Source: Crocinitomicaceae bacterium
GTDB taxonomy: Bacteria; Bacteroidota; Bacteroidia; Flavobacteriales_D; Crocinitomicaceae
Length of the DNA stretch: 35,973 bases
Assembly: GCA_021740745.1 (NCBI GenBank)
Contig: JAIOZF010000026.1
Span: forward strand, 1 to 35,973
Direction of reading: 5' to 3'
Shown: piece by piece, positions 14,490 to 19,008 of the stretch
Layout: each line of letters starts with the position of its first letter
Position numbering within the stretch: the first letter of the stretch is position 1
The notes under the pieces: generated by a model
The model's input: the letters and a program-made list of their open reading frames with translations, nothing else
Told to the model about the DNA's origin: nothing
The model's database searches: none
Program-made: the position numbers and the translations under genes

Positions 14490-15083
14490 TTACATGGTGT
14501 GTTTCAAATGGTCATTTTTTAAGAAGTGTATCATTTTTTCAAAAGCACGTGCACGATGACTCATCTTGTTTTTCTCATCCAAGGACAATTCTGCAAAAGT
14601 CTTGTTTTGTCCTTCTGGAACAAAAATTGGGTCATACCCAAACCCATCTTCACCTCGCTTTTCAGAAATAATTGAGCCTTTTACAATACCTTCAAAAATA
14701 TGTTCTTTTCCTTCTAGAATTAATGAAATTACTGTTCTGAATTGAGCGGTTCGATCACTTTTATCCGCAAGCTTTTCTAACACTTTATTCATGTTCTCGT
14801 CAGCATTTTTTGAAGGACCTGCATATCGAGCAGAATAAACGCCAGGTTCGTTGTTTATAGCTTTAATCTCTAGACCTGTATCGTCAGAAAAACAATCCAA
14901 AGAATAATGACGCAAAATATAATGCGATTTTTGACTAGCATTCCCCTCTAATGTGTCAGCTGTTTCTGGAATATCTTCAGAGATATTGATATCATTCAAT
15001 GTCAATACCTCAAATTCTGAAGGCAATAAAGCTTGAATTTCGGCTGCTTTGTGTTGGTTTTGTGTGGCAAAAACAAGTTTCAT
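14490..15083 (-). CDS. rdgB: Non-canonical purine NTP pyrophosphatase (RdgB/HAM1)
   Basis: A 197-residue house-cleaning enzyme that hydrolyses ITP, dITP and XTP to the monophosphate and pyrophosphate, keeping deaminated purines out of nucleic acids. Family motifs are the N-terminal [14 protein letters not shown] (3-16), the metal/base segment SDDTGLEI (66-73), [25 protein letters not shown] and the C-terminal [10 protein letters not shown]. All parts are present and the length is standard. It lies 31 bases downstream of the GxxExxY gene on the same strand and has no obvious promoter of its own, so cotranscription is likely. Confidence 0.96.
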
Positions 15084-15114
15084 GATTATCTTTTTTTAGT
15101 TGTAAAAATAATTC

Positions 15115-15501
15115 TTAATCTTGATTGAGCTTATTCACCTTCCGAATGATGTTGTCAAAAATTGAATCTGAATTGAAATTAACTAAAATCCCCAATTTAA
15201 TATCTGTTAATTTCAAATATGTTAATACTTGTTTATGATGCAGTTTAGTTAGTTTTTCGACTGATTTAATTTCAATTATAACTTTCTTATTAATTAATAA
15301 ATCCAATCGAAATGCAGATTCCATTTGTATATCTTCATAGATTATCGGAATTGCCACTTGTGATTCTACAGCTAGTCCACGTTTTTTTAATTCATAAATC
15401 AATGTGGCTTCATAGGCAGATTCTAAAAGTCCAGGACCTAGCTTTTCGTAGATATTGAAAATAGCACCACGTATTTGATAGGAAATTTCGTTTTCAGTCA
15501 T
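15115..15501 (-). CDS. GxxExxY protein, PD-(D/E)XK nuclease-like
   Basis: A 128-residue protein of the GxxExxY family, related to PD-(D/E)XK nucleases. The naming motif is G24-LL-E27-SA-Y30 within GPGLLESAYEATL. The nuclease-type core is visible: Asp67 in FRLDLLI, then Glu77 and Lys79 in VIIEIKSVE (a D...ExK pattern), followed by Gln91 and Tyr95 in KQVLTYLKLT. From these residues a metal-dependent nuclease activity is plausible, but the family function is not known to me. It lies upstream of rdgB, and 73 bases before its start begins a 1-kb array of hairpin repeats, a context discussed in the findings. It is intact. Confidence 0.9.
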   Translation of the reverse strand: MTENEISYQIRGAIFNIYEKLGPGLLESAYEATLIYELKKRGLAVESQVAIPIIYEDIQMESAFRLDLLINKKVIIEIKSVEKLTKLHHKQVLTYLKLTDIKLGILVNFNSDSIFDNIIRKVNKLNQD

Positions 15502-15574
15502 AGTATTATAATATAGGTTTATCTTTAAGTTATTAAAATGGAATATATTTTACAATTTTTTTTTAGTTTTTCTT

Positions 15575-16540
15575 TTCTGCGAAACTCTGCGAAATCAGCG
15601 GGAGAAAAAAAAGAAAGTGAATGTGCTATGGTTTCCCGCTGAGTGCGCAGAAAAACGCGGAGATTTATTTATTGGATGTTTGATTCTGCGAATCTCTGCG
15701 ATCTTAGTGGGAGATAAAAAAGGGAAGTGAATGTGCTATGGTTTCCCGCAGAGTGCGCAGAAGAACGCGGAGATTTATTTATTGGATGTTTGATTCTGCG
15801 AATCTCTGTGAAATCAGCGGGATAAAAAAAAGAAAGCGTTGCATGTTAGAGTTTCCCGCAGAGCGCTCAGAAAAACGCGGAGCTATGTTTATTGGGTGTT
15901 TGATTCTGCGAAACTCTGCGATCTTAGCGGGAGATAAAAAAGGGAAGTGAATGTGCTATGGTTTCCCGCAGAGGGCGCAGAAAAACGCGGAGATTTATTT
16001 ATTGGATGTTTGATTCTGCGAATCTCTGCGATCTTAGCGGGAGAATAAAAGAAAGTGTTGCATGCTAGAGTTTCCCGCAGAGTGCGCAGAAAAACGCGGA
16101 GCTATTTTTATTGGTTGTTTGATTCTGCGAATCTCTGCGATCTTAGCGGGAGAATAAAAGAAAGCGTTGAATGTTAGAGTTTCCCGCAGAGTGCGCAGAA
16201 AAACGCAGAGATTTGTTTGTTGGGTGCATGATTCTGCGAAACTCTGCGATCTTAGCGGGAGATAAAAAAGGGAAGTGAATGTGCTATGGTTTCCCGCAGA
16301 GTGCGCAGAAAAACGCGGAGGTTTATTTATTGGATGTTTGATTCTGCGAATCTCTGTGAAATCAGCGGGATAAAAAAAAGAAAGCGTTGCATGTTAGAGT
16401 TTCCCGCAGAGTGCGCAGAAAAACGCAGAGATTTGTTTGTTGGGTGAATGATTCTGCGAATCTCTGCGATCTCAGTGGGAGAAAAAAAGAAACAGTTGTT
16501 TGTTAAAGTTTCCAGCAGAAAACTCAGAAAAATGCGGAGG
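15575..16540. repeat. Tandem array of nine about 110-bp inverted-repeat units
   Basis: Units begin at 15575, 15684, 15794, 15904, 16014, 16123, 16232, 16342 and 16452, with a period of 109 or 110. Each has arm B (TTCTGCGAATCTCTGCG... ending GCGGGA), a 28-30 base AT-rich loop, arm A (TTTCCCGCAGAGTGCGCAG... ending CGCGGAG) and a linker of about 20 bases (often ATTTATTTATTGGATGTTTG). Arm A is an imperfect reverse complement of arm B, so every unit can fold into one long hairpin on either strand. Each arm is itself three 10-11 base subrepeats around CTCTGCG. The loop has two forms, one with GAATGTGCTATGG (units 1, 2, 4, 7) and one with GTTGCATGTTAGAG or variants (units 3, 5, 6, 8); unit 9 is degenerate. 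The array fills the gene-free stretch between the GxxExxY gene and the glycosyltransferase stop. I see no gene in it. Confidence 0.97.
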
Positions 16541-16565
16541 AAGGTTTTTTGAGTTATTCAGAATC

Positions 16566-17639
16566 CTAATCGCGAAATAAATTCAAATAGGCCGATTTCA
16601 GGGCATTGACAGAAAAACGCTCTTCTATGGTTTGTTTACCGGCTTTACCTAGACGAACACGTATTTCTTTGTTTTCGAGTAATAAACTCAGTTTTTCTTT
16701 CCATTCTTCTGGACTACCAGCTAAAAAACCATTGACACCATCGTGAATAATTGATGTATTCACACCAACCGGCGACATCACCGAAGCAATTTCCAAGGAC
16801 ATGTATTGCAATCCTTTGAAACCACATTTGCCTTCCGACCAGATATCATGATTCAAAGGCATAACACCAATGTTCATCTTTGCCAAATCTTCGATTTCAG
16901 TTTCCTTATTCCATTTAATGAACTGTAAGGATTTCAATTCAAAGCTCGGTGCTTCATTGGAAATCACTAGGAAGGTAAAATCATGTGTTTTCTCTAGTTC
17001 CTGCAAAACTGGAATTAATTCGTTCAAGTAATGCATTGTCGTATGCGTTCCTGTCCAACCAATCACCATATTGTCTTGCGCTTGGTCACACATTTCATTG
17101 TGATGATTCACAGTATCAATAGTTGTTGGAATGATGGAAACAGAAGCATTGTATTGACGTGCGTAACCAGCCAAATATTCATTTCCAGCAGTGACATGTG
17201 AAGCCCATTTCATACAATAATTGACTTTCCAATACGCTTTTAATCGTTGGAACTTTGCATTCGTTTCGCTGTAATTCGCTAACCAAATCGCATCATCAAA
17301 ATCGTAAATGAATTTTCTTCTCAAGACTTTGGCAACAATCCATTCAAATACGGGAGGTCCAAGCTGCGCCATTTCACGATGTACAAATATGTAATCAGCG
17401 CGATGAAGTTTAAACAGCAAGAAAAATCTACGCATAAAACTTCCTAAAATGCCAACCATCTTTTTGAATGTCTTTCCTTCGGCATACAAGGTTTTCCAAG
17501 TTTTTTCGTTCAGGAATGGATACAATTCAACCGTGTAACCATTTTCTTCCAAGTCGGGCAAATATTGCTCGAACCTAAAACGCTGTGATGGCGCTTCTCC
17601 TTTCGGATAGGGAACAAGAAAGAAAATTGTTTTTGACAT
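16566..17639 (-). CDS. Glycosyltransferase, GT-B fold (GT4-like)
   Basis: A 357-residue cytoplasmic glycosyltransferase. The N-terminal half begins IFFLVPYPKGEAPSQRFRFEQYLPDL (5-30), a start known from GT4-like enzymes of surface-glycan loci. DDAIW in KFIYDFDDAIWLANYSET follows near residue 117. The C-terminal donor domain carries IGWTGTHTTMHYLNELIPVL (about 193-212), the KCGFKGLQYMSLEIASVMSPVG region, where E-x7-E type enzymes bind the nucleotide sugar, and a closing helix GSPEEWKEKLSLLLENKEI...LGKAGKQTIEERFS. Sugar and acceptor cannot be read from the sequence. It is last in the asnB-glycosyltransferase run, 52 bases after its neighbour, and its stop is 26 bases from the repeat array. Confidence 0.88.
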   Translation of the reverse strand: MSKTIFFLVPYPKGEAPSQRFRFEQYLPDLEENGYTVELYPFLNEKTWKTLYAEGKTFKKMVGILGSFMRRFFLLFKLHRADYIFVHREMAQLGPPVFEWIVAKVLRRKFIYDFDDAIWLANYSETNAKFQRLKAYWKVNYCMKWASHVTAGNEYLAGYARQYNASVSIIPTTIDTVNHHNEMCDQAQDNMVIGWTGTHTTMHYLNELIPVLQELEKTHDFTFLVISNEAPSFELKSLQFIKWNKETEIEDLAKMNIGVMPLNHDIWSEGKCGFKGLQYMSLEIASVMSPVGVNTSIIHDGVNGFLAGSPEEWKEKLSLLLENKEIRVRLGKAGKQTIEERFSVNALKSAYLNLFRD

Positions 17640-17691: not shown

Positions 17692-18912
17692 TTAATTGAG
17701 TAATTTTTGATACACACTTAAATAACGTTCAACACCAACTTCCAACCCATAAAACTCATATGAACCTTTCATGGTTGATATTCGATCATAGCATGAATCA
17801 TTAATTAGTGATCTTTTGTAGGTTTCATTATTCATTTCGTCAATTACAATTCCAGCGTTGTATTGCTTTACCACCAAATCCGTATCACCAACGCCTGCAT
17901 TGCAAACCAATGGAATTCCCATCGCCATAATTTCACCTTGTTTTGTTGGTGATGAGGCTTTTTTGGAATAGCTCGGACGAATGAAAAAGATCGAAGCAGA
18001 AAATAAACTAATGTTCAAGGGAACTTCTGCATGACGACAAGAAGTAATAATAATCGATTCCGCATCAATTCCTTTTTCACTGGCTTTTGTCAAAATGGTC
18101 GATGGATTTTCACCTGTCACGAATAAAAATTTTGCGTTGGAATTTTCTGTTTTCAGTACTTTAAAATAGTCTAACATTTCTGGAAGCATGTACCATGTGC
18201 CAATCGAACCAACATAGCCCAGGATAAAATCGGATGCTTCTATGTTCATTTGTTGACGCAATTCGTTTTGTTTCGTTTCCGAAATTGTCGTTGGATCAAA
18301 TAAGTTTAAATCAACACAACATGGAATGACTTCTATTTTCGGAGGATTTGCTTTAAACGCAGGCCAACTTTCAATTTCATTTTTTCCATTGTGCGTCAAG
18401 GAAATGGTATAATCAGCTTGCGAAAAAAACTGCAATTCTTTCTTTTTAAAGAAATTGTAAACGGTTTTAAAAACAGGATTTCCCAAACTCCAAATGTTAC
18501 CATCAACACGTTCATTTGCCCAAAATCCGCGCATATCGAACAGAAATTTGGAACCAAAACGCTTTTTCATTCCTAGTCCAACTAATGCTGAAATATAACT
18601 TCTGCAATGAATAATTTTAAAAGAATGTTCTTTGTGCAAACGATGCGCCAAACGCTTCATGCGCTGGACATCGTAAATTGTCGAAAGTAATGGCGGTTTT
18701 TTGGTATAACTCAAAGGATGCCAACTAATTCCGTGTTGATCACAAATCGCTTGAATGTGTTCACGGTGCAACCCAAATTTCTCTTCCTTTTCAAAACTGA
18801 TCAAATGAAATTGAAATCCTTCTTTGGATAAACCACCCAAATACGGCAACACTTGCGATTGCCCTAGCGGATCTGTCATCCCATCGTATGATATGTATAG
18901 TATCTTATTCAA
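17692..18912 (-). CDS. Glycosyltransferase, GT-B fold (GT4-like)
   Basis: A glycosyltransferase of about 406 residues. Its start region reads LNKILYISYDGMTDPLGQSQVLPYL, the conserved opening of a GT4-like family in Bacteroidota, and later it has FHLISFEKEEKF, ILGYVGSIGTWYMLPEMLDYFKVLK and the donor-site segment SPTKQGEIMAMGIPLVCNAGVGD. I place the start at the TTG at 18912. An ATG at 18966 in the same frame adds 18 residues (REEQRAKSKEQRARNKE...), but these are encoded by a 7-bp repeat and look non-biological. It is downstream of asnB and upstream of a second glycosyltransferase, so it probably helps build a surface polysaccharide or glycolipid. Confidence 0.85.
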   Translation of the reverse strand: MNKILYISYDGMTDPLGQSQVLPYLGGLSKEGFQFHLISFEKEEKFGLHREHIQAICDQHGISWHPLSYTKKPPLLSTIYDVQRMKRLAHRLHKEHSFKIIHCRSYISALVGLGMKKRFGSKFLFDMRGFWANERVDGNIWSLGNPVFKTVYNFFKKKELQFFSQADYTISLTHNGKNEIESWPAFKANPPKIEVIPCCVDLNLFDPTTISETKQNELRQQMNIEASDFILGYVGSIGTWYMLPEMLDYFKVLKTENSNAKFLFVTGENPSTILTKASEKGIDAESIIITSCRHAEVPLNISLFSASIFFIRPSYSKKASSPTKQGEIMAMGIPLVCNAGVGDTDLVVKQYNAGIVIDEMNNETYKRSLINDSCYDRISTMKGSYEFYGLEVGVERYLSVYQKLLN

Positions 18913-18923
18913 TTCTTTATTCC

Positions 18924-19008
18924 TTGCTCTTTGCTCTTTGCTCTTTGCTCTTTGTTCCTCTCGCATCTCGCATCTCGTCTCTCGGTTCTCAGTTCTCGAC
19001 TCTCAATC
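18924..19008. repeat. 7-bp microsatellite-like tract at the asnB-glycosyltransferase junction
   Basis: On the plus strand four exact TTGCTCT units (18924-18951) and a degenerate one (18952-18958) are followed, one base later, by seven related heptamers: CTCGCAT twice, then CTCGTCT, CTCGGTT, CTCAGTT, CTCGACT and CTCAATC (18960-19008). The last contains the asnB stop codon. The tract covers the spacer and the possible early start of the next gene. Confidence 0.9.

Follow-up and report, generated by a model that had tools for sequence, protein, structure and literature searches.

Do the palindromic repeats beside a GxxExxY gene belong to that gene, and what might the protein do with them? The question is raised by contig C123 of a 3.03-Mb Crocinitomicaceae draft genome, analysed here over its whole length of 35,973 nucleotides (the window). 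A sequence-only reading of the window had proposed that the protein, a putative nuclease, recognises, processes or mobilises the hairpins next to its gene. Comparison across genomes suggests that, in several phyla, GxxExxY genes and palindromes form a nuclease-and-mobile-repeat pairing for which no earlier description was found.

The window locus

The repeat array upstream of the GxxExxY gene is not a chance feature (Table 1). A sliding consensus match across the 36-kb window finds nine right ends (REs, 15575 to 16480) alternating with nine left ends (LEs, 15632 to 16539), which bears out the nine repeat units reported earlier, and it finds no further RE or LE copies outside the array. As a tandem repeat the array has a period of 110, 8.4 copies, 82% matches over that period and a score of 1196. 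It is better read as a series of 81-bp modules, each made of an LE (31 bp, TTTCCCGCAGAGTGCGCAGAAAAACGCGGAG), a 21-bp spacer and an RE (29 bp, TTCTGCGAATCTCTGCGATCTTAGCGGGA), with about 29 bp between successive modules. Read outward from the gene, the array starts with a lone RE, at the distance of 73 bp that the sequence-only reading gave, and continues with eight LE-RE modules before a final LE. The lone RE matches an RE of the gene-less C85 array (L036:8518-8546) at every base and has one mismatch to the REs on contig C7. The 3' side of the window gene is without any LE or RE end.

Table 1. Features of the window locus
Feature	Position	Strand	Remarks
GxxExxY gene (TIGR04256 / PF13366), small PD-(D/E)XK nuclease (predicted), 128 aa	15115..15501	-	profile scores, residues, model
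Right end (RE) adjoining gene	15575..15603	+	73 bp upstream of gene start
Tandem palindrome array, period about 110	15575..16539	.	RE + 8 x (LE-spacer-RE) + LE
Palindromic module 1	15632..15712	+	LE 15632-15662, RE 15684-15712
Palindromic module 2	15742..15822	+	LE 15742-15772, RE 15794-15822
Palindromic module 3	15852..15932	+	LE 15852-15882, RE 15904-15932
Palindromic module 4	15962..16042	+	LE 15962-15992, RE 16014-16042
Palindromic module 5	16071..16151	+	LE 16071-16101, RE 16123-16151
Palindromic module 6	16180..16260	+	LE 16180-16210, RE 16232-16260
Palindromic module 7	16290..16370	+	LE 16290-16320, RE 16342-16370
Palindromic module 8	16400..16480	+	LE 16400-16430, RE 16452-16480
Final degenerate LE	16509..16539	+	6 mismatches vs consensus
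Ham1-family neighbour gene	14490..15083	-	one anchor in within-genus locus comparison
Group 1 glycosyltransferase neighbour gene	16566..17639	-	other anchor in within-genus locus comparison

Folding with DNA parameters shows that two window units (83 and 81 nt; z -3.3 and -3.7) and a module from genome G302 (z -7.4) are more stable than dinucleotide shuffles, while an 81-nt stretch of the C7 array, cut 2-3 bases short of the module end, is not (z -0.7). The inverted repeats might thus be terminators or mRNA-stability hairpins of this gene and of other operons, with no part for the protein. Three of the four folded units are more stable than their shuffles, and the C85 array immediately follows the stop codon of an adjacent gene. 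This explanation is nevertheless very improbable, since in the comparisons below repeats flank the gene on both sides, similar palindromes lie in frame inside sbcD, and repeat number goes with the gene.

Two other classes of element were considered for the array and rejected. No Rfam model exceeds its gathering score in window positions 15000-16700 (the only match is mir-1954, 21.3 bits against a gathering score of 99), which rejects a structured RNA family. The array is not a CRISPR array, because its spacers recur: a 300-nt reference spanning repeats and spacers is found again at 60-92% identity. Elsewhere in the window, the 5' end of a glycosyltransferase ORF (17692-18966, minus strand) contains a perfect heptanucleotide repeat, TTGCTCT, with 4.4 copies at 18924-18954. 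Repeats of this type can cause phase variation.

The window's genome alone would make a weak case for a link between gene and repeats. Arrays of the window type are also found on contigs C7, C59 and C85, and no GxxExxY-family gene is present on these three contigs. The genome has three GxxExxY genes, only one of which adjoins a CTCTGCG array; the remaining two lie, as read by eye, amid degenerate words of the CACAAAG/CACATAG type. Gene-less arrays of this kind are what would be expected if another factor moved or amplified the palindromes and GxxExxY genes sat in hot spots of insertion and recombination. Contigs C54 (L037:8820-9370) and C1 (L038:8600-9450) of the same genome also carry tandem arrays; their palindromes are of the CGCAGAT type, their units are separated by AT-rich repeats, and a GxxExxY gene was not found on either contig.

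The GxxExxY protein

The GxxExxY protein is predicted to be a metal-dependent nuclease. The window gene scores 142.4 bits with TIGR04256 (GxxExxY, cut-off 35) and 142.9 bits with PF13366 (cut-off 22), and its product has the GxxExxY motif as well as D67, E77 and K79. Across 97 relatives G22, G24, E27, Y30, D67, E77, K79, N108 and F109 are invariant, and Q91 and Y95 are at least 90% conserved, so the active-site residues named in the sequence-only reading (Asp67, Glu77, Lys79 and Gln91) hold up across the family. The structure model has a pLDDT of 94.9. Its first Foldseek match is SSO0001 (4ic1), a Cas4, at E 3.7e-4 and with a TM-score of only 0.49 over the query. Realignment with VIA-align gives Z 9.4 for SSO0001, followed by a restriction-fold protein of Spirosoma at Z 8.3; the remaining matches, among them Hjc at Z 6.8, have Z below 8 and are not trustworthy singly. 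The protein is therefore modelled as a Cas4/RecB-like PD-(D/E)XK core. By sequence, Cas4 is a weak match (E up to 1) in 56 of the 97 members, the window protein falls below the Cas4 cut-off (PF01930, 14.6 bits against 22.7), and no solved relative is convincing (best E 0.26). PMC8934634 notes a single gene that two programs annotated differently, one as cas4 and the other as GxxExxY. The conserved residues, the fold match and the weak Cas4 similarity together make a metal-dependent nuclease likely.

A tyrosine transposase of the HUH/Y1 type was not matched: only PDDEXK_3 / GxxExxY models exceed their cut-offs, and the leading folds are PD-(D/E)XK nucleases. No transposase model in NCBIfam or Pfam matches the window gene at E <= 0.001. 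GxxExxY genes are found in 151 of 296 Bacteroidota genomes. With the query used, the family is found in 7 of 72,556 plasmid records and in none of 50,697 phage records, so it is mostly chromosomal, and the possibility of a phage gene was rejected. The window array has no match on plasmids.

These properties would also suit a host nuclease that trims or resolves hairpins and cruciforms, in the manner of SbcCD or Holliday-junction resolvases, and that is kept near the repeats to limit their harm. The PD-(D/E)XK core, the presence of Hjc among the structural matches (at a Z below the trust level), the strictly kept active site and the mostly chromosomal location all agree with such a role. However, it more simply predicts fewer repeats in genomes with the gene, and the opposite is seen; it also leaves unexplained why different genes of one genome (G316, below) have different words. 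We regard this role as quite unlikely.

Repeat words near GxxExxY genes

Repeat words are concentrated beside GxxExxY genes in many genomes. GTDB species genomes were scanned with the protein profile only, and the best 80 of 565 confirmed relatives were taken as loci, without regard to repeats. Most are from Bacteroidota; the others include Acidobacteria, Planctomycetes, Verrucomicrobia (Akkermansia and others), Nostoc, Desulfobacteraceae, Ignavibacteria and one Methanosarcinales MAG. Many of these loci are MAG contigs, whose taxon labels can be wrong. In the best 80 of 565 loci, CTTTGCG occurs 282 times in the 79.7 kb within 500 bp of the gene (3.54/kb) and 59 times in the 534.3 kb at a distance of 5-10 kb (0.11/kb), a 32-fold difference in density. 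The corresponding counts for CTCTGCG are 109 (1.37/kb) and 33 (0.06/kb). When only non-coding DNA is considered, CTTTGCG has a density of 8.57/kb near the gene versus 0.25/kb distally. The degenerate word [AC]T[CT]TG[CT]G is found within 500 bp of the gene in 77 of these 80 loci.

Control words behave differently in the same best 80 of 565 loci. GTGTTTC and CTCGTCG are flat with distance, and a degenerate reversed word rises less than 2-fold near the gene (1.12 vs 0.60/kb). A third control, GCGTCTC, does rise (0.30 vs 0.04/kb), because it is part of CTCTGCGTCTC. Unbiased searches return the same kind of word: among 7-mers CGCAAAG is best (48 of the 80 proximal blocks vs 9 of 95 control blocks) and CGCAGAG is found in 31 of 80 vs 4 of 95, and the best 8-mer is CGCAAAGA (36 of 80 vs 3 of 95). 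The earlier reading had mentioned CTCTGCG-type repeats near GxxExxY genes of unrelated genomes, and the word is indeed present within 500 bp in 34 of the best 80 of 565 loci; the enrichment of adjacency across genomes, on which that reading depended, is thus found in several phyla.

Inverted bracketing of the gene

The repeats bracket the gene in inverted orientation. Flanks were compared at 76 of the best 80 of 565 loci, those with full 250-bp flanks on both sides. With the 99th percentile of 148 distal controls as the threshold, which 1% of these controls exceed, 56 of the 76 loci score higher for inverted similarity between their own two flanks, and flanks taken from mismatched loci do so in 38 of 375 comparisons. 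The other 20 of the 76 have no inverted pair above threshold. Similarity in direct orientation is also over the threshold in 33 of the 76, because arrays hold both orientations. Outside Bacteroidota, 14 of 18 loci pass the inverted test, four of them narrowly (scores of 17-18, threshold 16.5), and two are without a score. In the Hymenobacter locus L106, 52 of 52 bases are identical between the two inverted flanks, with a span of 495 bp. Bracketing is also clear in Saprospiraceae L164 (span 495), Nostoc L150 and Desulfobacteraceae L117.

The words have a preferred orientation, pointing toward the gene on both sides. Within 120 bp of the gene in 130 loci, CRCARAK outnumbers MTYTGYG upstream (158 vs 63), and the reverse is found downstream (60 vs 218; Fisher p 9e-30). 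L306 and L307 have a tandem duplication that takes in both the gene and its ends, and L044 has two gene copies in tandem. The seven plasmid-borne genes were read by eye: words are present on both sides in L394, L395 and L398 and on one side in L397, a CACGGAT-like pair flanks the gene in L400, and L399 has none that are clear. The seventh, L396:1050-1720 from a plasmid of a Fusobacteria bacterium, is flanked by similar repeats that are direct, not inverted.

Word type and protein

The type of word follows the protein tree beyond what host group accounts for. Of 142 loci, 130 were kept for labelling, 16 of them with fewer than three words. Word ending (AAAG, AGAG or AGAT, the three commonest) was tested in 88 loci, with 16 mixed and 10 rare loci left out, and the second letter (G or A) in 96 loci, with 18 mixed loci left out. 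The endings require 17 changes on the protein tree, versus 31.1 +- 2.3 when they are shuffled within host groups (lowest of 300 shuffles, 26); the second letter requires 19 changes versus 25.1 (lowest 20).

Within a single genome the words can differ from gene to gene. Seven paralogue regions of G316 were fetched and six genes were readable (L299 likewise gave no readable gene). In five of the six, words flank the gene on either side and fall into five kinds (CACGGAG/CTCTGTG, CGCAGAG/CGCAAAG, CACAGAT, CACAAAG/CACGAAG and CGCAATG/CGCAAAG), and the sixth has a single ATCTGTG. The covariation of word and protein and the differing words of G316 are what cognate recognition would predict, and co-inheritance of the gene with its flanks also contributes to the pairing. 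With two words and a single gene sampled in each of 30 genomes, dispersed words show no significant match to the word at the gene (p=0.19 and 0.12). The sampling may be the reason, since a genome can have as many as 12 genes of the family.

Repeat number and gene presence

Paired repeats are commoner in genomes that have a GxxExxY gene. The sample comprises the 151 Bacteroidota genomes with the gene and 145 without it, and pairs were counted with the pattern CTTTGCGN(1-4)CTTTGCG. At least one pair is present in 92 of 151 gene-plus and 28 of 145 gene-minus genomes, at least three in 58 of 151 and 1 of 145, and at least ten in 23 of 151 and 0 of 145; the total is 972 copies in gene-plus and 41 in gene-minus genomes. 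Stratified by family the association is kept (11 informative families, p=1.4e-5). It is absent in family f17 taken alone (at least three pairs in 0 of 6 gene-plus vs 1 of 58 gene-minus genomes), and relatedness is only partly controlled. A second word, ATCTGCG, repeats the result, with at least two pairs in 30 of 151 vs 1 of 145 genomes, and more weakly at five or more (12 of 151 vs 1 of 145, p=0.003). The repeats are therefore not equally common in relatives that lack the gene, and their copy number goes with its presence, as the sequence-only reading implied.

Most of the dispersed repeats inspected have no family gene nearby. G302 has 101 pattern places, and a GxxExxY gene lies within 1.5 kb of one of the 27 first-listed pattern places, taken one per genome. 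Some gene-minus genomes also have several copies: G105 has eight CTTTGCG pairs and G109 five ATCTGCG pairs, and others have one or two pairs (27 genomes for CTTTGCG, 23 for ATCTGCG). No GxxExxY relative is seen in the five loci of G105 and G109 examined (best E 0.04).

Modules present or absent in relatives

Whole modules are present in some genomes and absent at the same place in relatives. In genus g30, solo palindromes of about 125 bp, TTTAACCGC ... GCGGTTAAA, lie between genes; by eye, the ends of modules can be read as TCCCGC/GCGGGA or TTTAACCGC/GCGGTTAAA. At one such place both anchors were found in 17 of 30 loci, with the module present in 4 (including the query) and absent in 12, and with one interval too long to be shown. 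The module-less intervals differ in other ways too, several containing another open frame, and are therefore not clean empty sites. A solo TTTAACCGC-GCGGTTAAA module is a tandem dimer in L348 (G454:C36), and three relatives have one copy; the dimer is a possible first step toward arrays like that of the window.

In the genus of the window, the gap between the Ham1 and glycosyltransferase genes contains the GxxExxY gene and repeats in G000, G065, G037 and G075. In G061, G068, G073, G064 and G071 the Ham1 and glycosyltransferase matches are at most 20 bp apart, with neither gene nor repeats. G051 has degenerate repeats without the gene, the gap in G067 is 0.8 kb without a match to the gene, and three further loci have one anchor only. 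In G037 and G075 the gene has repeat ends on either side, which makes it probable that the window gene once had an outer end and lost it. At the ffh locus an array is present in G000, repeats of other families are found in G051 and G065, and the 13 other relatives among the 15 loci shown have no array; only G071, G060 and G080 of these also keep the neighbour on the other side.

Palindromes can also enter genes. Three CGCAGAT-type palindromes lie in frame inside an sbcD-like gene of G109 (L411:300-1250, contig C7), and the first insert, of 23-24 codons, is missing from all 18 of the orthologues aligned, further weak matches having been left out. SbcD is a nuclease that cuts hairpins in E. coli. 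No GxxExxY gene is detectable in the genome of G109, and the case therefore indicates that such palindromes insert, not which enzyme acted. At the g30, Ham1-glycosyltransferase and ffh places, filled and empty sites have diverged at their borders, which are not clean enough for target-site duplications to be read.

Window positions 15083-16566 were also compared with G051:C70. Identity changes from 66% on the Ham1 side to 93% on the glycosyltransferase side across the element, as if it were the border of a recombined block.

The idea of another factor acting at hot spots can draw on this change in identity, by which the repeats may be recombination borders, as well as on the gene-less arrays of the window's genome and on the persistence of repeats in gene-minus genomes, with several copies in two. 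It leaves unexplained why, in several phyla, inverted copies bracket the gene and favour one orientation, and why word type and protein covary within host groups, and all genomes with at least ten pairs carry the gene. It is an unlikely explanation. All three alternatives (movement by another factor, a host nuclease that limits harm, and regulatory hairpins) are made less likely by the inverted bracketing and by the direction that the association takes at the level of genomes.

A possible mechanism

The best reading, to which we give a probability of roughly 0.6, is that this is an analogue of REPIN-RAYT systems built on an unrelated PD-(D/E)XK nuclease, which would spread palindromes in trans. 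It would be a two-part selfish or domesticated repeat system. The autonomous form would be a unit of about 0.5 kb with the nuclease gene between inverted ends, each end consisting of about two to four 7-base words (CGCAAAG, CGCAGAG, CGCAGAT, CACAAAG and others) at a spacing of 8-10 bp. The gene-less form would be a palindrome of about 80-130 bp that has the same left and right ends around a short spacer; such palindromes would be scattered between genes and in some places multiplied into tandem arrays like that of the window. Most likely the nuclease would recognise the words of its own family, either as duplex or as an extruded hairpin or cruciform, and it may cut or nick at the word-bearing ends or at the target, perhaps within the extruded hairpin. 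A nuclease without a strand-transfer domain cannot integrate DNA alone, so host repair must be invoked. The module would be copied during this repair, and palindromes could spread in trans as REPINs do with RAYTs.

Comparison with known systems

The closest parallel is with REPIN-RAYT systems (REPtrons; TnpA-REP). Here too an enzyme gene lies between inverted palindromic repeats, and paired repeats without the gene are dispersed, mostly in intergenic DNA. In both cases there are clusters near the gene, several families can occupy one genome, each with its own gene, and the enzyme gene is chromosomal and behaves like a housekeeping gene. On the REP side, PMC3116915, PMC8266576 and PMC3733652 describe genes flanked by inverted repeats, dispersed pairs, clusters, several families and a housekeeping-like enzyme gene, and the second of these reports tnpA-REP as mostly chromosomal. 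In contrast, RAYTs are HUH/Y1 tyrosine transposases acting on single strands, whereas GxxExxY is a predicted PD-(D/E)XK nuclease, and the GxxExxY repeats are 80-130 bp long and built of several 7-base words. GxxExxY is unrelated to RAYTs and is therefore an analogue, not a member. By this comparison the system would be new in kind, not in its way of life.

Other mobile elements share some of these features. TIRYTs, the RAYT-like genes of TIRtrons, lie between long terminal inverted repeats that form dispersed TIR families, according to PMC3733652. As in the GxxExxY unit, inverted repeats enclose a small gene, and its ends belong to a repeat family scattered through the genome, but TIRYTs are tyrosine transposases of the IS200/IS605 type. 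Insertion sequences and their MITEs likewise consist of an autonomous unit with inverted ends and gene-less derivatives, although the window gene has an end on one side only. The GxxExxY unit has no known transposase, and units of about 0.5 kb have no room for another gene such as a transposase.

Cas4 and RecB-type nucleases share the D...ExK...QxxxY core and the fold with GxxExxY. They differ in size (128 aa for GxxExxY, 202-206 in the 4ic1 chains), and the window protein has no cysteine and therefore no Fe-S cluster, unlike Cas4. In addition, no cas gene lies beside the window gene, and the spacers of the array recur and are not unique.

Rickettsia palindromic elements are palindromic modules of less than 100 bp inserted in frame in genes. 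By description they are like the palindromes in sbcD of G109, and we know of no nuclease that has been assigned to them. These elements are named in PMC3733652. In the literature searched, which lacks the bulk of subscription titles and the wording of the NCBIfam entry, GxxExxY is named and no more; no link between GxxExxY and repeats is drawn there, and the repeat strings do not occur.

Implications

These results provide a candidate function, which can be tested, for a widespread uncharacterised family, and they suggest an owner for repeat families with up to about 100 pattern places in a single genome. There is an even chance that GxxExxY proteins are a class of repeat-mobilising enzymes, minimal Cas4/RecB-like nucleases without a transposase domain that spread palindrome families in bacterial, perhaps also archaeal, chromosomes, each lineage being specific for its words. 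The pairing of word and protein would then provide a ready natural collection of nucleases, each specific for a sequence or a structure. If the proposed reading is true, the way of life of REPINs and RAYTs arose a second time with an unrelated enzyme, a lone PD-(D/E)XK nuclease is able to drive the spread of repeats, and a system of this kind has gone unnoticed in half of the Bacteroidota genomes sampled.
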